From NCBI RefSeq assembly GCF_001475935.1, contig NZ_LDQA01000001.1:62001-126000 (forward strand): a stretch of 64,000 nt of DNA, in the 5' to 3' direction. Source of the DNA: Aureimonas ureilytica. Lineage in GTDB: Bacteria; Pseudomonadota; Alphaproteobacteria; Rhizobiales; Rhizobiaceae. Under the pieces are notes generated by a model, which made no database searches, was not told where the DNA came from, and saw only the letters and a list, made by a program, of their open reading frames with translations. Positions 1,076 to 9,320 of this stretch are shown here, piece by piece (within the stretch, counting starts at the first letter, position 1; the number at the start of each line of letters is the position of its first letter). The translations under genes and the position numbers were made by a program.

Positions 1076-2377
1076 ATGACGGTCGGTCCCGCAGCCGGCA
1101 TCGCTCCGGAGCCCCTCATGAAGACCAAGCCTTTCTCGCGCTTCGAATGGATGATCGCGGGCCGGTATCTCCGGTCACGTCGGCGAGATGCGGGTGTCTC
1201 CGTCATCGCCGGCTTCTCCTTCGTGGGCATCATGCTCGGCGTGGCGGCACTGATCATCGTCATGTCGGTGATGAATGGATTTCGAGGGGAGTTGCTGACG
1301 CGCATTCTGGGCGTCAACGGGCATGTCATCATGCAGCCCATGGATCAGCCTCTGACCGACTATGACGAGGTGGCCAAGCGCATTGCGGCGGTGCCCGGCG
1401 TCGCCTTCACCATGCCCCTGGTACAGGGACAGGTTCTGGCGACGGGCACAAACAATGCCAGCACCGGCGCTCTGGTGAAAGGCGTTCGAGGCGCCGATCT
1501 CCTGCGGCTGAAGCCCATCGCGTCGAATATCAAACTCGGGACAATCGAGAATTTCGACACCAGCCAGGGTGTCGCGATCGGAAGCCGTCTGGCGGACTCG
1601 CTCGGGCTGCGCCTCGGCGACTCCATCACGCTCGTTTCGCCTGAGGGTGACGTGACGCCGCTGGGTGTCACGCCACGCGTCAAAGCCTATCCGATCGTCG
1701 CGATCTTCGAGATTGGTTTGTCGGAGTATGATGCCGCTTATGTCTATATGCCGCTCAGTGAAGCGCAGCTCTTCTTCAATTCGGAAAACCAAGCGCAGTC
1801 GATCGAGATCTTCGTGAACGACCCCGACAAGGTGTCGGCCATGCAGGCGCAGATCGAGCAGGCCGCCGGACGGCCGAATTACACCATCACATGGCAGCGT
1901 CAGAACGAGAGCTTCTTTTCGGCTCTGGAGGTCGAGCGCAACGTCATGTTCATCATCCTGACCCTGATCGTTCTGGTCGCCGCGCTGAACATCATCTCCG
2001 GTCTCTTCATGCTGGTGAAGGACAAGGGCCGGGACATCGCGATCATGCGAACCATGGGGGCTACGCGTGGATCGATCATGCGCGTGTTTCTGATCACGGG
2101 CGCCTCGATCGGCATTTCGGGAACGCTGGCGGGCTTCGTTCTGGGTACGGTTTTCTGCCTGAATATCGAAAATCTCCGTCAGTTCTTTTCTTGGGTCTCG
2201 GGCACGACCTTGTTCAATCCCGAATTCTACTTCCTCAGCCGGCTGCCGGCCGAGATCGATGCCCGTGAGGTCGCGACAGTCGTGCTCATGGCGGTCGGTT
2301 TGTCCTTTCTCGCGACGATCTTCCCCTCGTGGCAGGCATCGAAGCTCGATCCCGTCGAGGCATTGCGTTACGAATGA
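1076..2377 (+). CDS. lolC: Lipoprotein-releasing ABC transporter permease (LolC/LolE family)
   Basis: Inner-membrane permease that, with LolD, extracts outer-membrane-destined lipoproteins and hands them to LolA. About 433 residues. One N-terminal membrane helix follows the [14 protein letters not shown] segment (about residues 41-66), then comes a large periplasmic MacB-like domain, and three C-terminal FtsX-type helices begin near [18 protein letters not shown]. The protein ends with the typical [10 protein letters not shown]. The frame is open further upstream into proS, but homologues begin shortly before [13 protein letters not shown] 1076 is chosen and ATG 1118 is a credible alternative. 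The stop overlaps the lolD start (ATGA). Only one permease gene is present beside lolD, suggesting a homodimeric permease (inference). Confidence 0.93.
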
Positions 2378-3063
2378 TGGATCAGGCTTCTCTTCGTCTT
2401 GAGCGCGTCGAACGTCATTTCGCGCAAGGGGACGCTCGTCTCACGATCCTGGATCAGGCGGACCTCGCGATCATGCCGGGCGAGATGGTGGCGCTTGTCG
2501 CACCGTCGGGCTCGGGTAAGTCCACACTTCTGCACATTGCCGGCTTGCTGGAACGGCCAGACGCCGGGGACGTGGTCGTCAACGGGCAATCCTGCGGCGC
2601 GCTGGACGACGCCGGGCGCACGACCATGCGGCGCTCCGCCATCGGGTTCGTCTATCAGTTCCACCATCTCCTGCCGGAATTCTCGGCCCTTGAGAACGTC
2701 ATGCTGCCCCAGATGATCGGCGGTCTTCGCCGGGATCTGGCGGCGGATCGGGCACGGGAACTGCTCGATTATATGCGGCTGGGCCATCGCACCAAACATC
2801 GCCCCTCCGAACTCTCGGGCGGCGAGCAGCAGCGGGTCGCGATCGCTCGAGCGGTCGCCAACAATCCCTTTGTGCTTCTGGCGGACGAGCCGACCGGTAA
2901 TCTCGATCCAACCACGTCGAACTATGTGTTCGACGCCATGACCGCGCTGGTGCGCCAGTCCGGTGTGGCAGCGCTGATCGCGACACACAATCACGATCTG
3001 GCTCGTCGAATGGACCGCGCCGTGACGCTGTCCGAAGGGAAGATTCGGGATCATCGTCTCTGA
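2374..3063 (+). CDS. lolD: Lipoprotein-releasing ABC transporter ATP-binding protein LolD
   Basis: ATPase of the Lol lipoprotein-release complex. 229 residues, the usual LolD length. Walker A is APSGSGKST (about residues 43-51), the Q-loop region reads [20 protein letters not shown], the ABC signature is [14 protein letters not shown], and Walker B is [12 protein letters not shown], followed by the switch histidine in ATHNHDL. The start ATG 2374 overlaps the lolC stop as ATGA, implying translational coupling; a longer open frame upstream lies inside lolC and is not used. A second ATG follows directly at 2377. No convincing terminator is seen after the stop. Confidence 0.95.
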
Positions 3064-3203: not shown

Positions 3204-3884
3204 TTGTCCACTGCGTCCCCAATCAAGACCTCGTCTCGACCTTTCCCTCTTTGTACGGATCTCGTCCCACCTAATCGCGTCAGCGATGCGCTGAAAGCCG
3301 AGCTGGCGCGGCGCGCTCTTCCGGACGATTCTGCGACGGCGCCTCGGTCGTTCGACCAACGACAGTTGGACACCTTACGAGCGATGGTTTCTCGTATTCT
3401 TCCGGATGCGGAAGCCTACGGCATCGACATCGCGCTGCGCCTCGACGCGATGATGGCAGATCAAGAGGGAAACGGCTGGCGCTACGAAGCTCTCCCGACC
3501 GATCCAGAAGCCTATCGCGCCGGCCTCGACACGTTGAACGCCTTGGCCGAGGCGAAGACCGGGCAGGGGTTCGATCTCCTGCCGGAGGCGGCGAGGGACG
3601 AATTGCTGGAAACGATCGGCCACGGCAATGCCGTCTCCCCGGTGCCGGGAGGGTGTTTCGATGCCGAGCAGATGAAGCTCTGGTTCGAAGAAGTCCGATC
3701 TGACGCGGTTCGTCATTATGTCGCGCATCCCGCCATTATGGCGCGGATTGGCTATTCCGGCTTTGCGAATGGCGGCGGCACCGGATTGGCGTTCCAAGGC
3801 TTCGAGAACGTCGGCATCGACGAACGCGAGGCTTGGGAGCCTGAGCCGGTCTCATCGTTCGACCAATCGGAGCACGCACGATGA
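3204..3884 (+). CDS. Gluconate 2-dehydrogenase subunit 3 family protein
   Basis: Small subunit partner of a membrane- or cofactor-linked GMC dehydrogenase. 226 residues. The region RSFDQRQLDTLRAMVSRILP and the later helix-rich stretch ending in HPAIMARIGYSGFANGGG match the gluconate 2-dehydrogenase subunit 3 family as I know it. The start is TTG at 3204, with AGGA about seven bases upstream; no in-frame ATG fits. Unlike many members it shows no twin-arginine or hydrophobic signal at the N-terminus, so export is not evident. The stop overlaps the start of the GMC gene (ATGA), so the two are almost certainly co-translated and form a complex (inference). Substrate unknown. Confidence 0.85.
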   Translation: MSTASPIKTSSRPFPLCTDLVPPNRVSDALKAELARRALPDDSATAPRSFDQRQLDTLRAMVSRILPDAEAYGIDIALRLDAMMADQEGNGWRYEALPTDPEAYRAGLDTLNALAEAKTGQGFDLLPEAARDELLETIGHGNAVSPVPGGCFDAEQMKLWFEEVRSDAVRHYVAHPAIMARIGYSGFANGGGTGLAFQGFENVGIDEREAWEPEPVSSFDQSEHAR

Positions 3885-5434
3885 AGCTCGACCGAATGGC
3901 ACATTATGGGCTGAATGAGGTTGTGGACGCTGTGATCATCGGGACGGGTGCCGGTGGATCGCCCCTTCTGGCGCGGCTGGCCGCAGCGGGCCTGCGCGTC
4001 GTGGCGCTGGAAGCCGGATCGAACCGAGACCCCAGAGAATACGCGGCGGACGAGGCGATGTCGTCCGATCTGTATTGGATGGATGAGCGCGTCAGCGGTG
4101 GCTCGATGCCGGAAGCGTTTGGTGCCAACAATAGCGGCGTCGGTGTCGGCGGCTCGATGCTGCATTGGGGCGCCTTCGTGCCGCGCGCCGACGCGCGCGA
4201 TCTGCGCTTGGCGAGCGAAACCGGGAAGGGGCGGGATTGGCCTTTGTCACTCGACGAGCTCATTCCCTACTATGAGGAAGTTGAGTCCTTCGTCGGCGTG
4301 TCAGGCCCGGCATCTTACCCTTGGGACTCGTCCCGTCGCTATGCGCTGCCGCCCGTTCTGCGGAACGCACCTGCGCAGGTTATGGCGAAAGGATGCGAGG
4401 CCGTTGGGGCGAAGGCGAGCGATGGTCCTGTCGCAGTCGTGTCACGCCGTTTCGAGCAACCGGATGCCCCAGTACGCGAGCCTTGCGTGAATTGCGGCTA
4501 TTGCCATCAGGGCTGTCGCAATGGTGCCAAGACGTCGATGGACGTCACCTATCTTCCCCTCGCCGTCGCGCGCGGTGCGGAGATTCGACCGGAGAGCTTC
4601 GCCGATCATTTCGAGTTCGACAGCCAAGGGCGGATCGCGGCGGTCGTCTATTGGCAGGCCGGCGCCATGATGCGTCAAAAATGCGCGCAGGTGTTTCTTT
4701 GCGCGGGGGCGATCGAGACACCGCGCCTTCTCCTGCGGCAGGGGATCGCCAATTCAAGCGGTCAGGTGGGGCGCAATTACACGGCGCATGTCGCAACGCA
4801 GGTCTGGGGAACGTTCCCACACGAGATGCGGATGAACAAAGGCTATCCGTCTTCGCTGATCACCGAAGACATGCTGCGACCGGAAGGCGCCGATTTCGCC
4901 GGTGGCTATCTCGTTCAAAGCCTGGGCGTGGTGCTCCAGACATGGGCGGACCAAGTGGCTCGCGGGCGAGGTCTCTGGGGGCAGAAGCTCACCGACTATC
5001 TCGACCGCTACAACCACGTCGCCGGCATCGGCATCAATGGCGAATGCCTTCCGAGCGACCAGAACGTGATGACCCTATCGGACGAGCTGGATGGGAGGGG
5101 CATGCCCAAGCCGCTGATCCGCTTCGGGTACGGCGAGAATGAAAAGGCGCTCCGCGCCCACGCGGTTCGATTCATGACATCGGTCTGGGAAGCCGCCGGG
5201 GCGAGCGACGTCTGGGTGCTCGATCGTACCGCCCATACGATCGGAACCTGCCGGATGGGCGTCGATGCGGGAGATAGCGTGGTCGATCCCTATGGCCGCA
5301 GCTTCGATGTGCCCAACCTCTGGATTGCCGACAATTCGGTCTTCCCCTCGGCCCTCGCAGCAAATCCGGCGCTGACCATCATGGCGCTGAGCCTTCGGAC
5401 GGCGGACCGCTTTCTCGGGCGTTTGAACGGCTGA
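3881..5434 (+). CDS. GMC-family FAD-dependent oxidoreductase with CxxCxxCxxxC motif
   Basis: Flavoprotein dehydrogenase or oxidase of an unknown alcohol, sugar or sugar acid. 517 residues. The FAD-binding Rossmann motif IIGTGAGG lies at residues 19-26 and the ribose-binding acidic end at VVALEAG. The C-terminal GMC signature is HTIGTCRMG followed by NLWIADNSVFPSALAANPA. Notably, cysteines 202, 205, 208 and 212 form CxxCxxCxxxC, a spacing able to hold an iron-sulfur cluster; related flavin dehydrogenases (FAD-glucose and fructose dehydrogenases) are known to carry one in a comparable place. It overlaps the preceding subunit-3 gene by ATGA. No cytochrome c subunit gene is adjacent. A strong terminator follows at 5462. 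Confidence 0.88.
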   Translation: MKLDRMAHYGLNEVVDAVIIGTGAGGSPLLARLAAAGLRVVALEAGSNRDPREYAADEAMSSDLYWMDERVSGGSMPEAFGANNSGVGVGGSMLHWGAFVPRADARDLRLASETGKGRDWPLSLDELIPYYEEVESFVGVSGPASYPWDSSRRYALPPVLRNAPAQVMAKGCEAVGAKASDGPVAVVSRRFEQPDAPVREPCVNCGYCHQGCRNGAKTSMDVTYLPLAVARGAEIRPESFADHFEFDSQGRIAAVVYWQAGAMMRQKCAQVFLCAGAIETPRLLLRQGIANSSGQVGRNYTAHVATQVWGTFPHEMRMNKGYPSSLITEDMLRPEGADFAGGYLVQSLGVVLQTWADQVARGRGLWGQKLTDYLDRYNHVAGIGINGECLPSDQNVMTLSDELDGRGMPKPLIRFGYGENEKALRAHAVRFMTSVWEAAGASDVWVLDRTAHTIGTCRMGVDAGDSVVDPYGRSFDVPNLWIADNSVFPSALAANPALTIMALSLRTADRFLGRLNG

Positions 5435-5461
5435 AGAGCGTCCATCCCAACCGCAAGCCTT

Positions 5462-5496
5462 CAAAGCCCCGCCCTGAATGCGGGGCTTTGTCATTT
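5462..5496 (+). terminator. Rho-independent terminator after the GMC oxidoreductase
   Basis: An 11-bp perfect stem (CAAAGCCCCGC / GCGGGGCTTTG, 5462-5472 and 5480-5490) with a 7-base loop is followed by TCATTT. It separates the GMC unit from the SOS-type control region and dnaE. Confidence 0.8.
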
Positions 5497-5515
5497 CAGC
5501 AACCATAGTGGACTT

Positions 5516-5530
5516 GTTCTTACTTTGTTC
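5516..5530 (+). promoter_or_regulatory. LexA (SOS) box 1, GTTC-N7-GTTC
   Basis: The bases read GTTCTTACTTTGTTC, an exact match to GTTC-N7-GTTC, the direct-repeat LexA operator known from Rhizobiales and Rhodobacterales. It lies 55 bp upstream of the small membrane-peptide start. A second box in the opposite orientation follows at 5551. Confidence 0.75.
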
Positions 5531-5544
5531 TTGCGTATCGCAAG
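5530..5544. repeat. Short inverted repeat between the two LexA boxes
   Basis: CTTGCG-TAT-CGCAAG is a perfect 6-bp inverted repeat with a 3-base centre. Its first base is shared with LexA box 1. It may be another operator half-pair or simply part of the promoter; no known factor is assigned. Confidence 0.5.
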
Positions 5545-5550
5545 GGAATG

Positions 5551-5565
5551 GAACAAATTGGGAAC
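5551..5565 (-). promoter_or_regulatory. LexA (SOS) box 2, GAAC-N7-GAAC
   Basis: The bases read GAACAAATTGGGAAC, which is the exact reverse-complement form of the alphaproteobacterial LexA operator. It ends 20 bp before the start codon of the 27-residue peptide and just ahead of its ribosome-binding site, a position suited to blocking transcription. Confidence 0.75.
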
Positions 5566-5585
5566 ACAGATCGACGGAGGTTGTC

Positions 5586-5669
5586 ATGCTGGTTCTCAGA
5601 GAAATCGCTTCGCTCACGGCCGTAGCCGCTTTCATCGCGAGCTTTGCCTTGATCCTTCATCTGATCTGA
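5586..5669 (+). CDS. 27-residue single-helix membrane peptide, probably SOS-controlled
   Basis: A very small gene with a textbook ribosome-binding site: GGAGG at 5576-5580, five bases before ATG 5586. The product begins MLVLREIASL and continues as an unbroken hydrophobic, alanine-rich helix ending in LILHLI, so a single inner-membrane segment is expected. Two LexA-type boxes directly upstream suggest induction by DNA damage. Known SOS-induced peptides of this size include Caulobacter SidA, a division inhibitor, and Escherichia coli TisB; I cannot show homology to either, only similarity of size, topology and control. The same frame is open from 5478, but that extension crosses the LexA boxes and is not credible. 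Function is inferred. Confidence 0.65.
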   Translation: MLVLREIASLTAVAAFIASFALILHLI

Positions 5670-5849
5670 TCCCACGCTTGCGGGAATGGTGAACAAGTCC
5701 GGATCGGGTCTGGACTTCGGCTCATGAATTGGAACACTGACGAATTCCTGGCTGCGGACTTCGAAACCGAATCGATCCTCGATCCGGTCTTCGAGCTTCG
5801 GCCTGACGGACCCTTCGATGAGGTCCGTGCCGAGATCGGGAACATCGTC

Positions 5850-8800
5850 ATGGCCGAAGAGAAAGGGGGCGCAGCGACGCCCCTGCGTTTCATTCATCTT
5901 CGGGTGCACAGCGCCTTTTCTTTGCTCGAAGGCGCGCTGCGCGTCGACCAGATCGTCAAATTCGCCAAGAGCGATGGAGCGCCTGCAATCGGGATTGCCG
6001 ATACAGGCAATCTTTTCGGGGCGCTGGAGTTTTCGGAAAAAGCGGCGAAATCTGGCATCCAGCCCATCATCGGGTGTCAGATTGAGGTCGACTTCCGCGA
6101 TGTGGAGGGCAATCCACGGGATCGCTCCGGCTTCGGATCGACAGGGTCGATCGTTCTCATCGCGGCGACGGAGCGTGGCTACGAGAACGTCGTGGAACTT
6201 GTGTCCCGCTCCTATCTGGAACATGATGGAAACACGCGTCCGCACGTTCTGGCGGAATGGCTGGCCGAGCATTCGGATGGCGTGATCGCTCTGACCGGAG
6301 GGCCGCTCGGGCCGATCGGGGCCGCCATCGCGTCGGGTCAAAGCACTGTTGCCCGCGCTCGGTTGGAAATGCTGGCGTCCGCCTTCGGCGATCGGCTCTA
6401 TGTCGAATTGCAGCGTCACGAAGGCCGTGCCCGGCGTACGGAGCCCGAAACCTGCGCGCTGGCCTACGAGCTGAATCTCCCGCTTGTCGCAACCAACGAG
6501 CCGTTCTTCTTCTGCAACGAAGATTTCGACGCGCATGACGCGTTGATCGCGGTGGCTTCGAATCGGCTCGTCAGCCACGAGGATCGCCGCCGCCTGACGC
6601 GTGACCACTGCCTGAAATCGCAGGAGCAGATGGCACTTCTCTTCGCCGATCTGCCCGAGGCGATCGAGAACACGGTCGAAATCGCGCGACGTTGCTCGTA
6701 TCGCGTCCGCACGCGCAAGCCCATCTTGCCCCGTTTCGCTGGCGCAGGTGCTGATGCGAGCGAGGCCGAGCTTGCCGAAGCGGCGGAACTGCGCGCCCAA
6801 GCTGAAGCCGGGCTCGAGGCGCGATTGGCAGCGCACGGTCCCGCACCGGGCCAGACCGTCGAGACCTACCGCGAGCGGCTTGAGTTCGAACTCTCGGTCA
6901 TCGAGCGGATGAAGTTCCCTGGCTACTTCCTGATCGTGTCGGACTTCATCAAATGGGCGAAGGCGCAGGGCATCCCGGTCGGACCCGGCCGTGGTTCGGG
7001 CGCGGGCTCGCTCGTCGCCTATTCGCTGACCATCACCGATCTCGATCCTCTCCGTTTCGCGCTTCTGTTTGAGCGCTTCCTCAATCCCGACCGCGTCTCG
7101 ATGCCCGATTTCGACATCGACTTCTGCCAAGATCGGCGCGAGGAGGTGATCCGCTACGTCCAGCAGAAATATGGGCGCGAGCAGGTGGCCCAGATCATCA
7201 CCTTCGGTTCCATGCAGGCGCGCGCCGTGCTGCGCGACGTCGGGCGTGTTTTGGAGATGAGCTACGGCCACGTGGACAAGCTCTGCAAGCTCGTGCCTCA
7301 AAACCCGGCCAATCCGGTGACGCTCGCGCAGGCACTGGAGGACGAACCGCGCCTTCAGGAAGAGCGGCGAAAGGAGGAGGTGGTGGACCGCCTTCTCAGC
7401 ATCGCGCTGAAACTCGAAGGTCTCTACCGCCACGCCTCGACCCACGCCGCCGGTATCGTGATCGGCGACCGGCCCCTGTCGAAGCTCGTGCCGATGTATC
7501 GAGATCCCAGATCCGATATGCCGGTCACCCAGTTCAACATGAAATGGGTGGAGCAGGCCGGGCTCGTGAAGTTCGACTTCCTCGGCCTGAAGACGCTGAC
7601 GACGCTGAAGACCGCTGTTGACCTGATCGCCCGGCGCGGTGAAAGGATCGATCTCGGTGCTGTTCCGCTGGAGGACAAGCCGACCTACGAACTCTTGACG
7701 CGCGGCGAGACGGTCGGCGTGTTTCAGGTGGAATCGGTTGGCATGCGCAAGGCGCTGATCGGCATGAAACCCGATCGGTTCGAGGATATCGTCGCTCTCG
7801 TCGCGCTCTATCGCCCCGGCCCGATGGAGAATATCCCGGTCTACAACGCCCGCAAGCACAAGGAGGAAGAGGTCGAGATCATCCACCCGAAGATCGAACC
7901 GATCCTTCGGGAAACGCAGGGCGTCATCATCTACCAGGAACAGGTGATGCAGATCGCGCAGGTTCTGTCCGGCTATACGCTGGGCGAGGCCGATCTGCTG
8001 CGCCGCGCCATGGGCAAAAAGATCCGCGCCGAAATGGATATTCAGCGCGTGCGCTTCGTGGATGGCTGCGTGAAGAACGGCATTCCAAAGGCGCAGGCCA
8101 ACACGATCTTCGATCTTCTGGCGAAGTTCGCCGACTATGGCTTCAACAAGAGCCATGCGGCGGCCTATGCGCTGGTCTCCTATCATACGGCCTATCTGAA
8201 GGCGAACTACCCGGTCGAGTTCCTGGCCGCGTCGATGACGCTCGATATGGGCAATACGGACAAGCTCAACGACTTCCGCCTTGATGCCAAGCGTCTGGGC
8301 ATTCCCGTCGTGCCGCCTTCGGTGCAACTCTCGCACCGGCCTTTCGAGGTTCGGGACGGGAAGATCATCTACGCGCTGGCAGCCATCAAGGGCGTCGGCG
8401 AGCAGGCGGTGGATCATATCGTCGAAAAGCGCGAGGAAGGCGGGACATTCAAAAGCCTCGAGGATTTCTGCGCGCGGATCGATCCCAAGATCGTCAACAA
8501 ACGCACGCTCGAACATCTGATCGCGGCGGGCGCGCTGGATTGTTTTGGCATCGACCGTGCTCGCTTGTGCGGTAATCTCGAAAAGCTCTCCGCCTATGCC
8601 GCGCTGGCGCAGGCGGGGCGCACGTCCGGCCAGCACGATATGTTCGGCGGTGGTGGGGAACCCGAACCCCTGCGGCTGGACGAAGTATCGGGATGGAGCA
8701 CGGCTGAAAAGCTACTGCGGGAGTTCCAGTCGATCGGCTTCTATCTCTCGGCTCACCCGCTGGACGAATACAAGGACGCCATGAAGCGCCTGAAGGTTCA

Positions 8801-9320
8801 GACCTACGCGGAAGTCGTCGCTGGCGTCCGCAAGGGGCAGACGGCGGGTCGCCTGGCCGGAACGGTGACATCGAGGCAGGAGCGCAAGACGCGCACCGGC
8901 GGCAAGATCGGTATCGTCCAGTTGTCCGACCCGACGGGGCAATATGAGATCGTGCTCTTCACCGAAACGCTCATCACCTTCCGCGACAAGCTGGAGCCGG
9001 GCGCTTCGGTGATTGTCACGGTCTCGGCAGAAGATCGGCCGGAAGGTATCTCGCTGCGCGCGTCCGGTGTCCAGTCGCTGGAAGCCGAGGCGGAGAAGAT
9101 GCAAAAAGCGCTGCGCATCTTCATGCGCGACGCCAAGCCGTTTTCGCTGTTCCAGAGTCAATTGCGCCAAGGCGGAGACAGCGACATCTCGCTGATCCTG
9201 TTGCGCGACGATGGCGAGCGCGAGGTGGAGATCACCCTGCCGGGCAAGTTCCGCGTTTCGCCGCAGATGGCAAGTGTGATCAAGGCGGCGCCCGGCGTCC
9301 TCGACGTCGAGCTGGCGTAA
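5850..9320 (+). CDS. dnaE: DNA polymerase III subunit alpha
   Basis: Replicative polymerase catalytic subunit. From ATG 5850 it has 1156 residues, the normal DnaE1 length. The N-terminal PHP domain starts at FIHLRVHSAFSLLEGAL. The polymerase core contains GPGRGSGAGSLVAYSL and the catalytic aspartates of PDFDIDFCQDRR, then the fingers region with YGFNKSHAAAYALVSYHTAY. A helix-hairpin-helix segment follows, and near the C-terminus an OB-fold around GRLAGTVTSRQERKTRTGGK. The frame is open upstream to ATG 5724, adding 42 acidic residues with coding-like base use. Family alignment favours 5850, but 5724 cannot be excluded. The length and the lolCD neighbourhood favour the housekeeping form over the mutagenic DnaE2. 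Confidence 0.95.
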   Translation: MAEEKGGAATPLRFIHLRVHSAFSLLEGALRVDQIVKFAKSDGAPAIGIADTGNLFGALEFSEKAAKSGIQPIIGCQIEVDFRDVEGNPRDRSGFGSTGSIVLIAATERGYENVVELVSRSYLEHDGNTRPHVLAEWLAEHSDGVIALTGGPLGPIGAAIASGQSTVARARLEMLASAFGDRLYVELQRHEGRARRTEPETCALAYELNLPLVATNEPFFFCNEDFDAHDALIAVASNRLVSHEDRRRLTRDHCLKSQEQMALLFADLPEAIENTVEIARRCSYRVRTRKPILPRFAGAGADASEAELAEAAELRAQAEAGLEARLAAHGPAPGQTVETYRERLEFELSVIERMKFPGYFLIVSDFIKWAKAQGIPVGPGRGSGAGSLVAYSLTITDLDPLRFALLFERFLNPDRVSMPDFDIDFCQDRREEVIRYVQQKYGREQVAQIITFGSMQARAVLRDVGRVLEMSYGHVDKLCKLVPQNPANPVTLAQALEDEPRLQEERRKEEVVDRLLSIALKLEGLYRHASTHAAGIVIGDRPLSKLVPMYRDPRSDMPVTQFNMKWVEQAGLVKFDFLGLKTLTTLKTAVDLIARRGERIDLGAVPLEDKPTYELLTRGETVGVFQVESVGMRKALIGMKPDRFEDIVALVALYRPGPMENIPVYNARKHKEEEVEIIHPKIEPILRETQGVIIYQEQVMQIAQVLSGYTLGEADLLRRAMGKKIRAEMDIQRVRFVDGCVKNGIPKAQANTIFDLLAKFADYGFNKSHAAAYALVSYHTAYLKANYPVEFLAASMTLDMGNTDKLNDFRLDAKRLGIPVVPPSVQLSHRPFEVRDGKIIYALAAIKGVGEQAVDHIVEKREEGGTFKSLEDFCARIDPKIVNKRTLEHLIAAGALDCFGIDRARLCGNLEKLSAYAALAQAGRTSGQHDMFGGGGEPEPLRLDEVSGWSTAEKLLREFQSIGFYLSAHPLDEYKDAMKRLKVQTYAEVVAGVRKGQTAGRLAGTVTSRQERKTRTGGKIGIVQLSDPTGQYEIVLFTETLITFRDKLEPGASVIVTVSAEDRPEGISLRASGVQSLEAEAEKMQKALRIFMRDAKPFSLFQSQLRQGGDSDISLILLRDDGEREVEITLPGKFRVSPQMASVIKAAPGVLDVELA

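Follow-up and report, generated by a model that had tools for sequence, protein, structure and literature searches.

A 27-codon gene behind two putative LexA boxes upstream of dnaE in Aureimonas ureilytica is best read as a divergent homologue of the Caulobacter division inhibitor SidA

The window, the whole 64,000-nucleotide stretch of Aureimonas ureilytica DNA analysed here, carries a very short open frame directly upstream of the gene for the replicative DNA polymerase. Its parts lie in the following order:

1007 to 2377, + strand: lolC/E permease gene, a context common with Caulobacter
2329 to 3063, + strand: gene for a LolD-like ABC transporter ATPase, likewise common context; it scores under the LolD equivalog cut-off, as does that of Caulobacter
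3204 to 3884: gene for a gluconate-2-dehydrogenase subunit-3 protein
3881 to 5434: GMC oxidoreductase gene
5462 to 5490, + strand: intrinsic-terminator-like hairpin with 11-nt perfect arms, 3' of the GMC-oxidoreductase gene
5516 to 5530, + strand: putative LexA box 1, GTTCTTACTTTGTTC, with the same spacing retained in the two nearest relatives
5531 to 5543: palindrome TTGCG-TAT-CGCAA between the boxes, not conserved
5551 to 5565, − strand: putative LexA box 2, GTTCCCAATTTGTTC, read on the + strand as GAACAAATTGGGAAC
5576 to 5580, + strand: GGAGG ribosome-binding site
5586 to 5669, + strand: 27-codon gene for the candidate divergent SidA homologue, MLVLREIASLTAVAAFIASFALILHLI, then the stop
5724 to 9320, + strand: dnaE, replicative DNA polymerase III alpha subunit

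An earlier, sequence-only reading had reported two exact LexA boxes of opposite orientation, the GGAGG motif and the 27-codon frame, and we confirmed both boxes and found the other two elements where it had put them. It had also drawn attention to an inverted repeat between the boxes. The repeat is indeed present, but it is not conserved in the two closest relatives (L026 and L027), which retain all four half-sites of the boxes and have a changed intervening stretch, palindrome included. We therefore rejected the palindrome as a functional element. The terminator-like hairpin behind the GMC-oxidoreductase gene suggests that a new transcription unit starts with the peptide gene; no consensus sigma-70 promoter was found in the window at the threshold of the scan. 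Between 5400 and 5800 no Rfam family reached its gathering score, and the sub-gathering matches all lay over or near the hairpin, so an RNA element of a known family was rejected as well.

The predicted peptide has 27 residues and one hydrophobic stretch, with a best 17-residue Kyte-Doolittle mean of 2.32. It has no match in Pfam or NCBIfam and none among phage families. With the replicative alpha-subunit model the dnaE product reaches 1489.8 bits (cut-off 1002); the error-prone model gives it 628 bits, short of the cut-off of 939, and it is not of the DnaE2 type. Upstream of the peptide gene, the gluconate-2-dehydrogenase subunit-3 and GMC-oxidoreductase pair (3204-5434) separates it from lolD; among the loci listed, many other Aureimonas differ in the sequence directly 5' of the peptide.

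By itself the box pattern says little. It occurs four times in the window, where chance predicts 2.24, and 23 of 100 shuffles have at least as many, so that this count is not significant and was dropped as evidence. Since the eight-base pattern is common on its own, the weight comes from the close pairing of the boxes and from their conservation: at chance density, only about 0.005 pairs within 60 bp would be expected per 64 kb. Genome-wide, the pattern is found 154 times (69+85), and its backward reading 92 times (54+38). An exact box of this operator type precedes the sole LexA DNA-binding-domain match in the window's genome (G000). Eleven further boxes of this genome with A+T-rich spacers were picked by eye from the first 100 of the 154. 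One of them is flanked by a UvrA-domain gene and an SSB gene, with the longest UvrA frame running into the box; none of the other ten marks a recognised SOS pair. The others lie near a gyrase/topoisomerase IV subunit A-type gene, a MazE-type antitoxin, DUF3572, radical-SAM and sulfate permease genes, among others, and the remainder near frames with no Pfam match; none of these neighbours is claimed as a LexA target.

Two of the picked sites can be described more closely. In L166 (G000:C79:21495-23895), at 1189-1215, an exact box lies 12 bases before the DNA gyrase/topoisomerase IV subunit A-type frame. In L169 (G000:C105:237803-240203), at 1201-1534, an exact LexA-type box lies 53 bases before the MazE-type antitoxin frame, a possible SOS-linked toxin-antitoxin pair.

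We examined conservation with dnaE as bait, which gave upstream DNA from 129 loci of distinct genomes; 127 were used, after removal of L064 and L129 because their upstream sequence was too short. Named dnaE loci were excluded from the count because many duplicate the same genomes. The sample is non-random, being made up of the best dnaE matches, 40 hand-picked places and the best 30 of 59 Caulobacter-genus genomes. Within 1000 bases upstream, each locus was scanned for an exact box and, no more than 130 bases behind it, a frame of 20 to 60 codons with a hydrophobic stretch. Boxes and peptide frame, whose conservation across relatives the sequence-only reading had proposed to check, proved to be conserved: 19 of 21 Aureimonas loci carry the combination, where shuffles predict 0.05 and the opposite strand shows it in 1 of 21. 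Beyond the genus it was found in 8 of 14 loci from the rest of the family, 8 of 18 from the rest of the order and 9 of 45 from the rest of the class, a patchy distribution outside the order, and in 29 of 29 Caulobacter loci. Overall, 73 of 127 loci have it, with 2 of 127 on the opposite strand and 0.1 expected from dinucleotide shuffles.

Both Aureimonas loci that missed the combination retain the peptide. In L040 the box has one mismatch, as read from L014, whose contig has the same length, and in L044 the box lies at -1020, just beyond the 1000 bases scanned. In the latter locus (genome G005), the intact peptide gene (-984) is separated from dnaE by several degenerate copies, in tandem, of its 3' half and the bases that follow. 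Of the 19 passing Aureimonas genomes, 14 carry a pair of exact boxes no more than 130 bases from the start, and 5 carry a single one. The second box points in the same direction as the first in most Aureimonas, and opposed pairs at other spacings were seen in L035, L083 and L118; box 2 of the window is the counterpart of the gene-nearest box in other Aureimonas and beyond. Additionally, 31 of 44 non-Caulobacter loci and 4 of 29 Caulobacter loci have TTGAC in the 32 bases that precede the first box, the background being 4% of random 32-mers from non-Caulobacter regions. The motif thus precedes the box in many relatives, which indicates that the box often lies at or overlaps the promoter.

The frame is conserved as a protein. 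Among 21 distinct Aureimonas sequences, pN/pS is 0.47 in frame versus 0.95 and 2.21 in the shifted frames, and the codon-position entropies are 0.97, 0.38 and 1.25, the second position being the least variable. For 28 distinct Caulobacter sequences, pN/pS is 0.27. The peptide frame is under purifying selection.

The identity of the Caulobacter peptide bears directly on the reading of the window. Caulobacter genomes were located with a CtrA sequence. One of them, G502, is of the Caulobacter vibrioides type: its GcrA is one residue of 160 off the GcrA of PDB 7ye1, which we take to be the C. crescentus protein. In G502 a 29-residue peptide is encoded behind a LexA box directly upstream of dnaE on the lolC-lolD side, and lolD and lolC/E follow about 1.1 kb further upstream, beyond an opposite-strand frame with no family match. 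By NCBIfam NF033228 this peptide is the cell division inhibitor SidA, scoring 72.3 bits against a cut-off of 35; together, three Caulobacter peptides gave 72.3, 57.5 and 52.9 bits. SidA is a 29-residue, SOS-induced inner-membrane protein that binds FtsW (PMC4211646). The sequence-only reading knew of no SOS peptide described at a lolCD-dnaE locus; in Caulobacter, SidA itself occupies that place. The published locus numbers for C. crescentus are CCNA_02004 for sidA (PMC10769358) and CC1926 for dnaE (PMC1839093); the CCNA and CC numberings differ, so these numbers alone are no proof of adjacency.

Across the order around Caulobacter, the SidA model matched 30 of 120 genomes at E ≤0.1, 14 of them over the cut-off, and some of the weaker matches are short pieces within long frames and look like chance. 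The match lies directly upstream of dnaE in all six genomes in which the two places were compared: G457, G383, G403, G358, G407 and G123 (below cut-off). We collected 24 SidA-side genes; an exact box lies no more than 200 bases away in 20 of them, and the other four (L178, L179, L180 and L186) have one-mismatch boxes; the 29 of 29 given above is therefore not to be taken as an exact box in every Caulobacter genome. In seven loci of genus g107 (L193-L197, L199 and L200), SidA-like peptides under the cut-off have two exact same-direction boxes 18 bases apart.

The curated model does not reach the window peptide. NF033228 gave no match to it at E up to 10, and none of 61 relatives exceeded the cut-off, the weak matches there lying away from dnaE. 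We thus compared the two groups through profiles built from either side. The order profile was made from 16 peptides of the window's order and none from Caulobacter. Among 2145 upstream pieces, it matched the peptide in each of the 29 Caulobacter loci, with E values from 0.005 to 3.5; unrelated forward pieces appeared from about E 1 and the reverse strand gave four matches, the best at E 3.4, so that the weakest Caulobacter matches do not surpass the reverse-strand control. When 18 distinct Caulobacter peptides were shuffled by residue, between 0 and 16 of 1000 shuffles of each reached the real score, and when the 29-residue Caulobacter peptides were subjected to a common permutation, 0 of 1000 reached the real mean score. 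The order profile also matched L111 (E 3.5e-9) and L117 (E 8e-5), two loci without an exact box.

In the reverse direction, we used a SidA-side profile of 24 peptides, 14 over the curated cut-off and the rest below it. It yielded 19 matches among 1605 upstream pieces of non-Caulobacter loci and none among 1522 reverse-strand pieces. Judged by eye from the printed sequences, 17 of the 19 are the dnaE-upstream peptide, with a best E of 3.7e-4; the other two, from L081 and the second piece of L108, are not. Missing from these matches at E 3 is the upstream piece of the window itself; that of its near relative L027 is present (E 0.31). Taken alone, the window peptide scores 8.0 bits with this profile, which 0 of 1000 shuffles reached. 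For seven other peptides the corresponding numbers per 1000 were 0 (L041), 1 (L046), 3 (L027), 3 (L052), 31 (L026), 284 (L028) and 292 (L032); the last two, both from Aureimonas, thus do no better than about 29% of their own shuffles.

In a profile comparison, hhalign aligned the first 19 columns with 88.7% probability and E 2.6e-6. The similarity covers the N-terminal half, with the motif [RK][DE]xx(A/S)LxxVxxF, and the FVWMM part of SidA is not common to both. The gene position directly upstream of dnaE on the lolC-lolD side, a LexA-type box in front, a tiny peptide (27 residues in the window, 29 in SidA) with a single hydrophobic stretch, and a detectable homology are all common to the window peptide and the wider SidA family. 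The window gene differs in its two opposed boxes, and in having the gluconate-dehydrogenase/GMC pair where Caulobacter has the opposite-strand frame. The relation thus runs through the N-terminal half via intermediate sequences, together with locus and operator. We use the name divergent SidA homologue and do not place the peptide in the NF033228 equivalog. In our best reading of these comparisons, the window peptide would be a divergent, unannotated SidA homologue at the same chromosomal position.

Other explanations account for part of these observations. The boxes could serve mainly dnaE, damage raising transcription of the replicative polymerase and the short frame being a leader or passenger; only 54 nt separate the peptide stop from dnaE, and this gap has no terminator-like site. 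Yet purifying selection acts on the peptide, which is kept as a protein across families, and the distance from its start down to the dnaE match ranges from 138 to 689 bases in non-Caulobacter loci and is 984 bases in L044. The term dnaE is also absent from the main text of a 2025 Caulobacter SOS regulon paper (PMC12700426). We consider this explanation very unlikely. The idea, raised in the sequence-only reading, that the same promoter may increase dnaE transcription after damage is possible in itself, but because the distance between peptide and dnaE varies so widely among relatives, SOS control of dnaE is not supported.

TisB is an SOS-induced single-helix peptide, and TisB and DinQ are membrane-active toxins accompanied by antisense RNAs in enterobacteria. 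The window gene might encode such a peptide, lowering the proton motive force and slowing growth with no block of FtsW: size class, single hydrophobic helix and LexA boxes would all match, and DinQ is described as an SOS-regulated toxic single-helix peptide (PMC3567139). However, the window peptide has its N-terminal motif and its locus in common with SidA, and the search of 5400-5800, which covers known Rfam families, found no such antisense element at the gathering score; a peptide of this type is unlikely here. A further alternative is that an unrelated single-helix peptide with another job came under SOS control at dnaE by convergence. The blindness of the curated SidA model to the window peptide, the differing C-terminal halves, and the L028 and L032 peptides, whose scores with the SidA-side profile do not exceed those of shuffles, would all agree with convergence. 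Set against them are the address, operator and N-terminal motif in common with SidA, the controlled profile matches, and a window peptide that beats 1000 of 1000 shuffles, and we regard convergence as very unlikely.

Homology to SidA thus remains the preferred reading, and the SOS-induced single-helix division inhibitor suggested in the sequence-only reading is well supported by this homology and by the locus common with Caulobacter SidA. Judging from boxes, frame, conservation, locus and homology, the gene likely encodes a LexA-repressed, divergent SidA homologue that would block the late divisome after damage. In undamaged cells, LexA would sit on the two boxes and keep the promoter off, box 2 giving the repression and box 1 reinforcing it in this clade; such doubled operators would fit a division inhibitor that needs silence without damage. 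Upon DNA damage, RecA-driven cleavage of LexA would free the promoter, and the peptide would enter the inner membrane as one helix. There it would block the late divisome, with FtsW/FtsI/FtsN as the most likely target, and septation would be delayed until repair is done. The peptide thus probably stalls septation through FtsW/FtsI/FtsN after damage.

In Caulobacter, changes at FtsW F145 and A246 suppress SidA (PMC4211646). Aureimonas FtsW carries F and A at these positions, as aligned to a Caulobacter protein numbered from an internal Met. Such conservation would be expected if the target is the same and is not proof of it, as the two residues may be kept for other reasons. In addition, G000 has one FtsW/RodA-family match (G000:C105:295125-296156, L174), and G502 has two clear ones. 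The single match in G000 would fit the loss of RodA in polar growers.

Among known systems besides SidA, DidA of Caulobacter is likewise a small protein with a single helix that is induced by damage and inhibits division through the FtsW/I/N complex, but it has 71 residues, is controlled by DriD and is SOS-independent (PMC4211646). YneA of Bacillus and SosA of Staphylococcus, from other phyla and set beside the window peptide by description, are SOS-induced membrane division inhibitors, and YneA is reported to act on FtsW.

In the literature, as far as titles and the starts of abstracts tell, we found no homologue of Caulobacter SidA outside Caulobacter and no rhizobial SOS inhibitor; the founding SidA paper (Modell 2011) may discuss distribution. 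Our comparisons suggest that a damage brake of the SidA type may be more widespread than current annotation shows. The chances are about even that a LexA-controlled brake of this type beside dnaE is ancestral to much of the Alphaproteobacteria, at least to the window's order and the Caulobacterales. It would then have been overlooked because it spans about 30 codons and because the curated model hardly extends beyond Caulobacter's family, and its lasting linkage to dnaE would reflect a coupling of replication and septation after damage. If the reading as a SidA homologue is right, the window's order, in which polar growth is frequent, would gain a concrete candidate for an SOS division checkpoint, and the divergent C-terminal half of the helix would serve as a natural experiment for finding the part of SidA in contact with FtsW.
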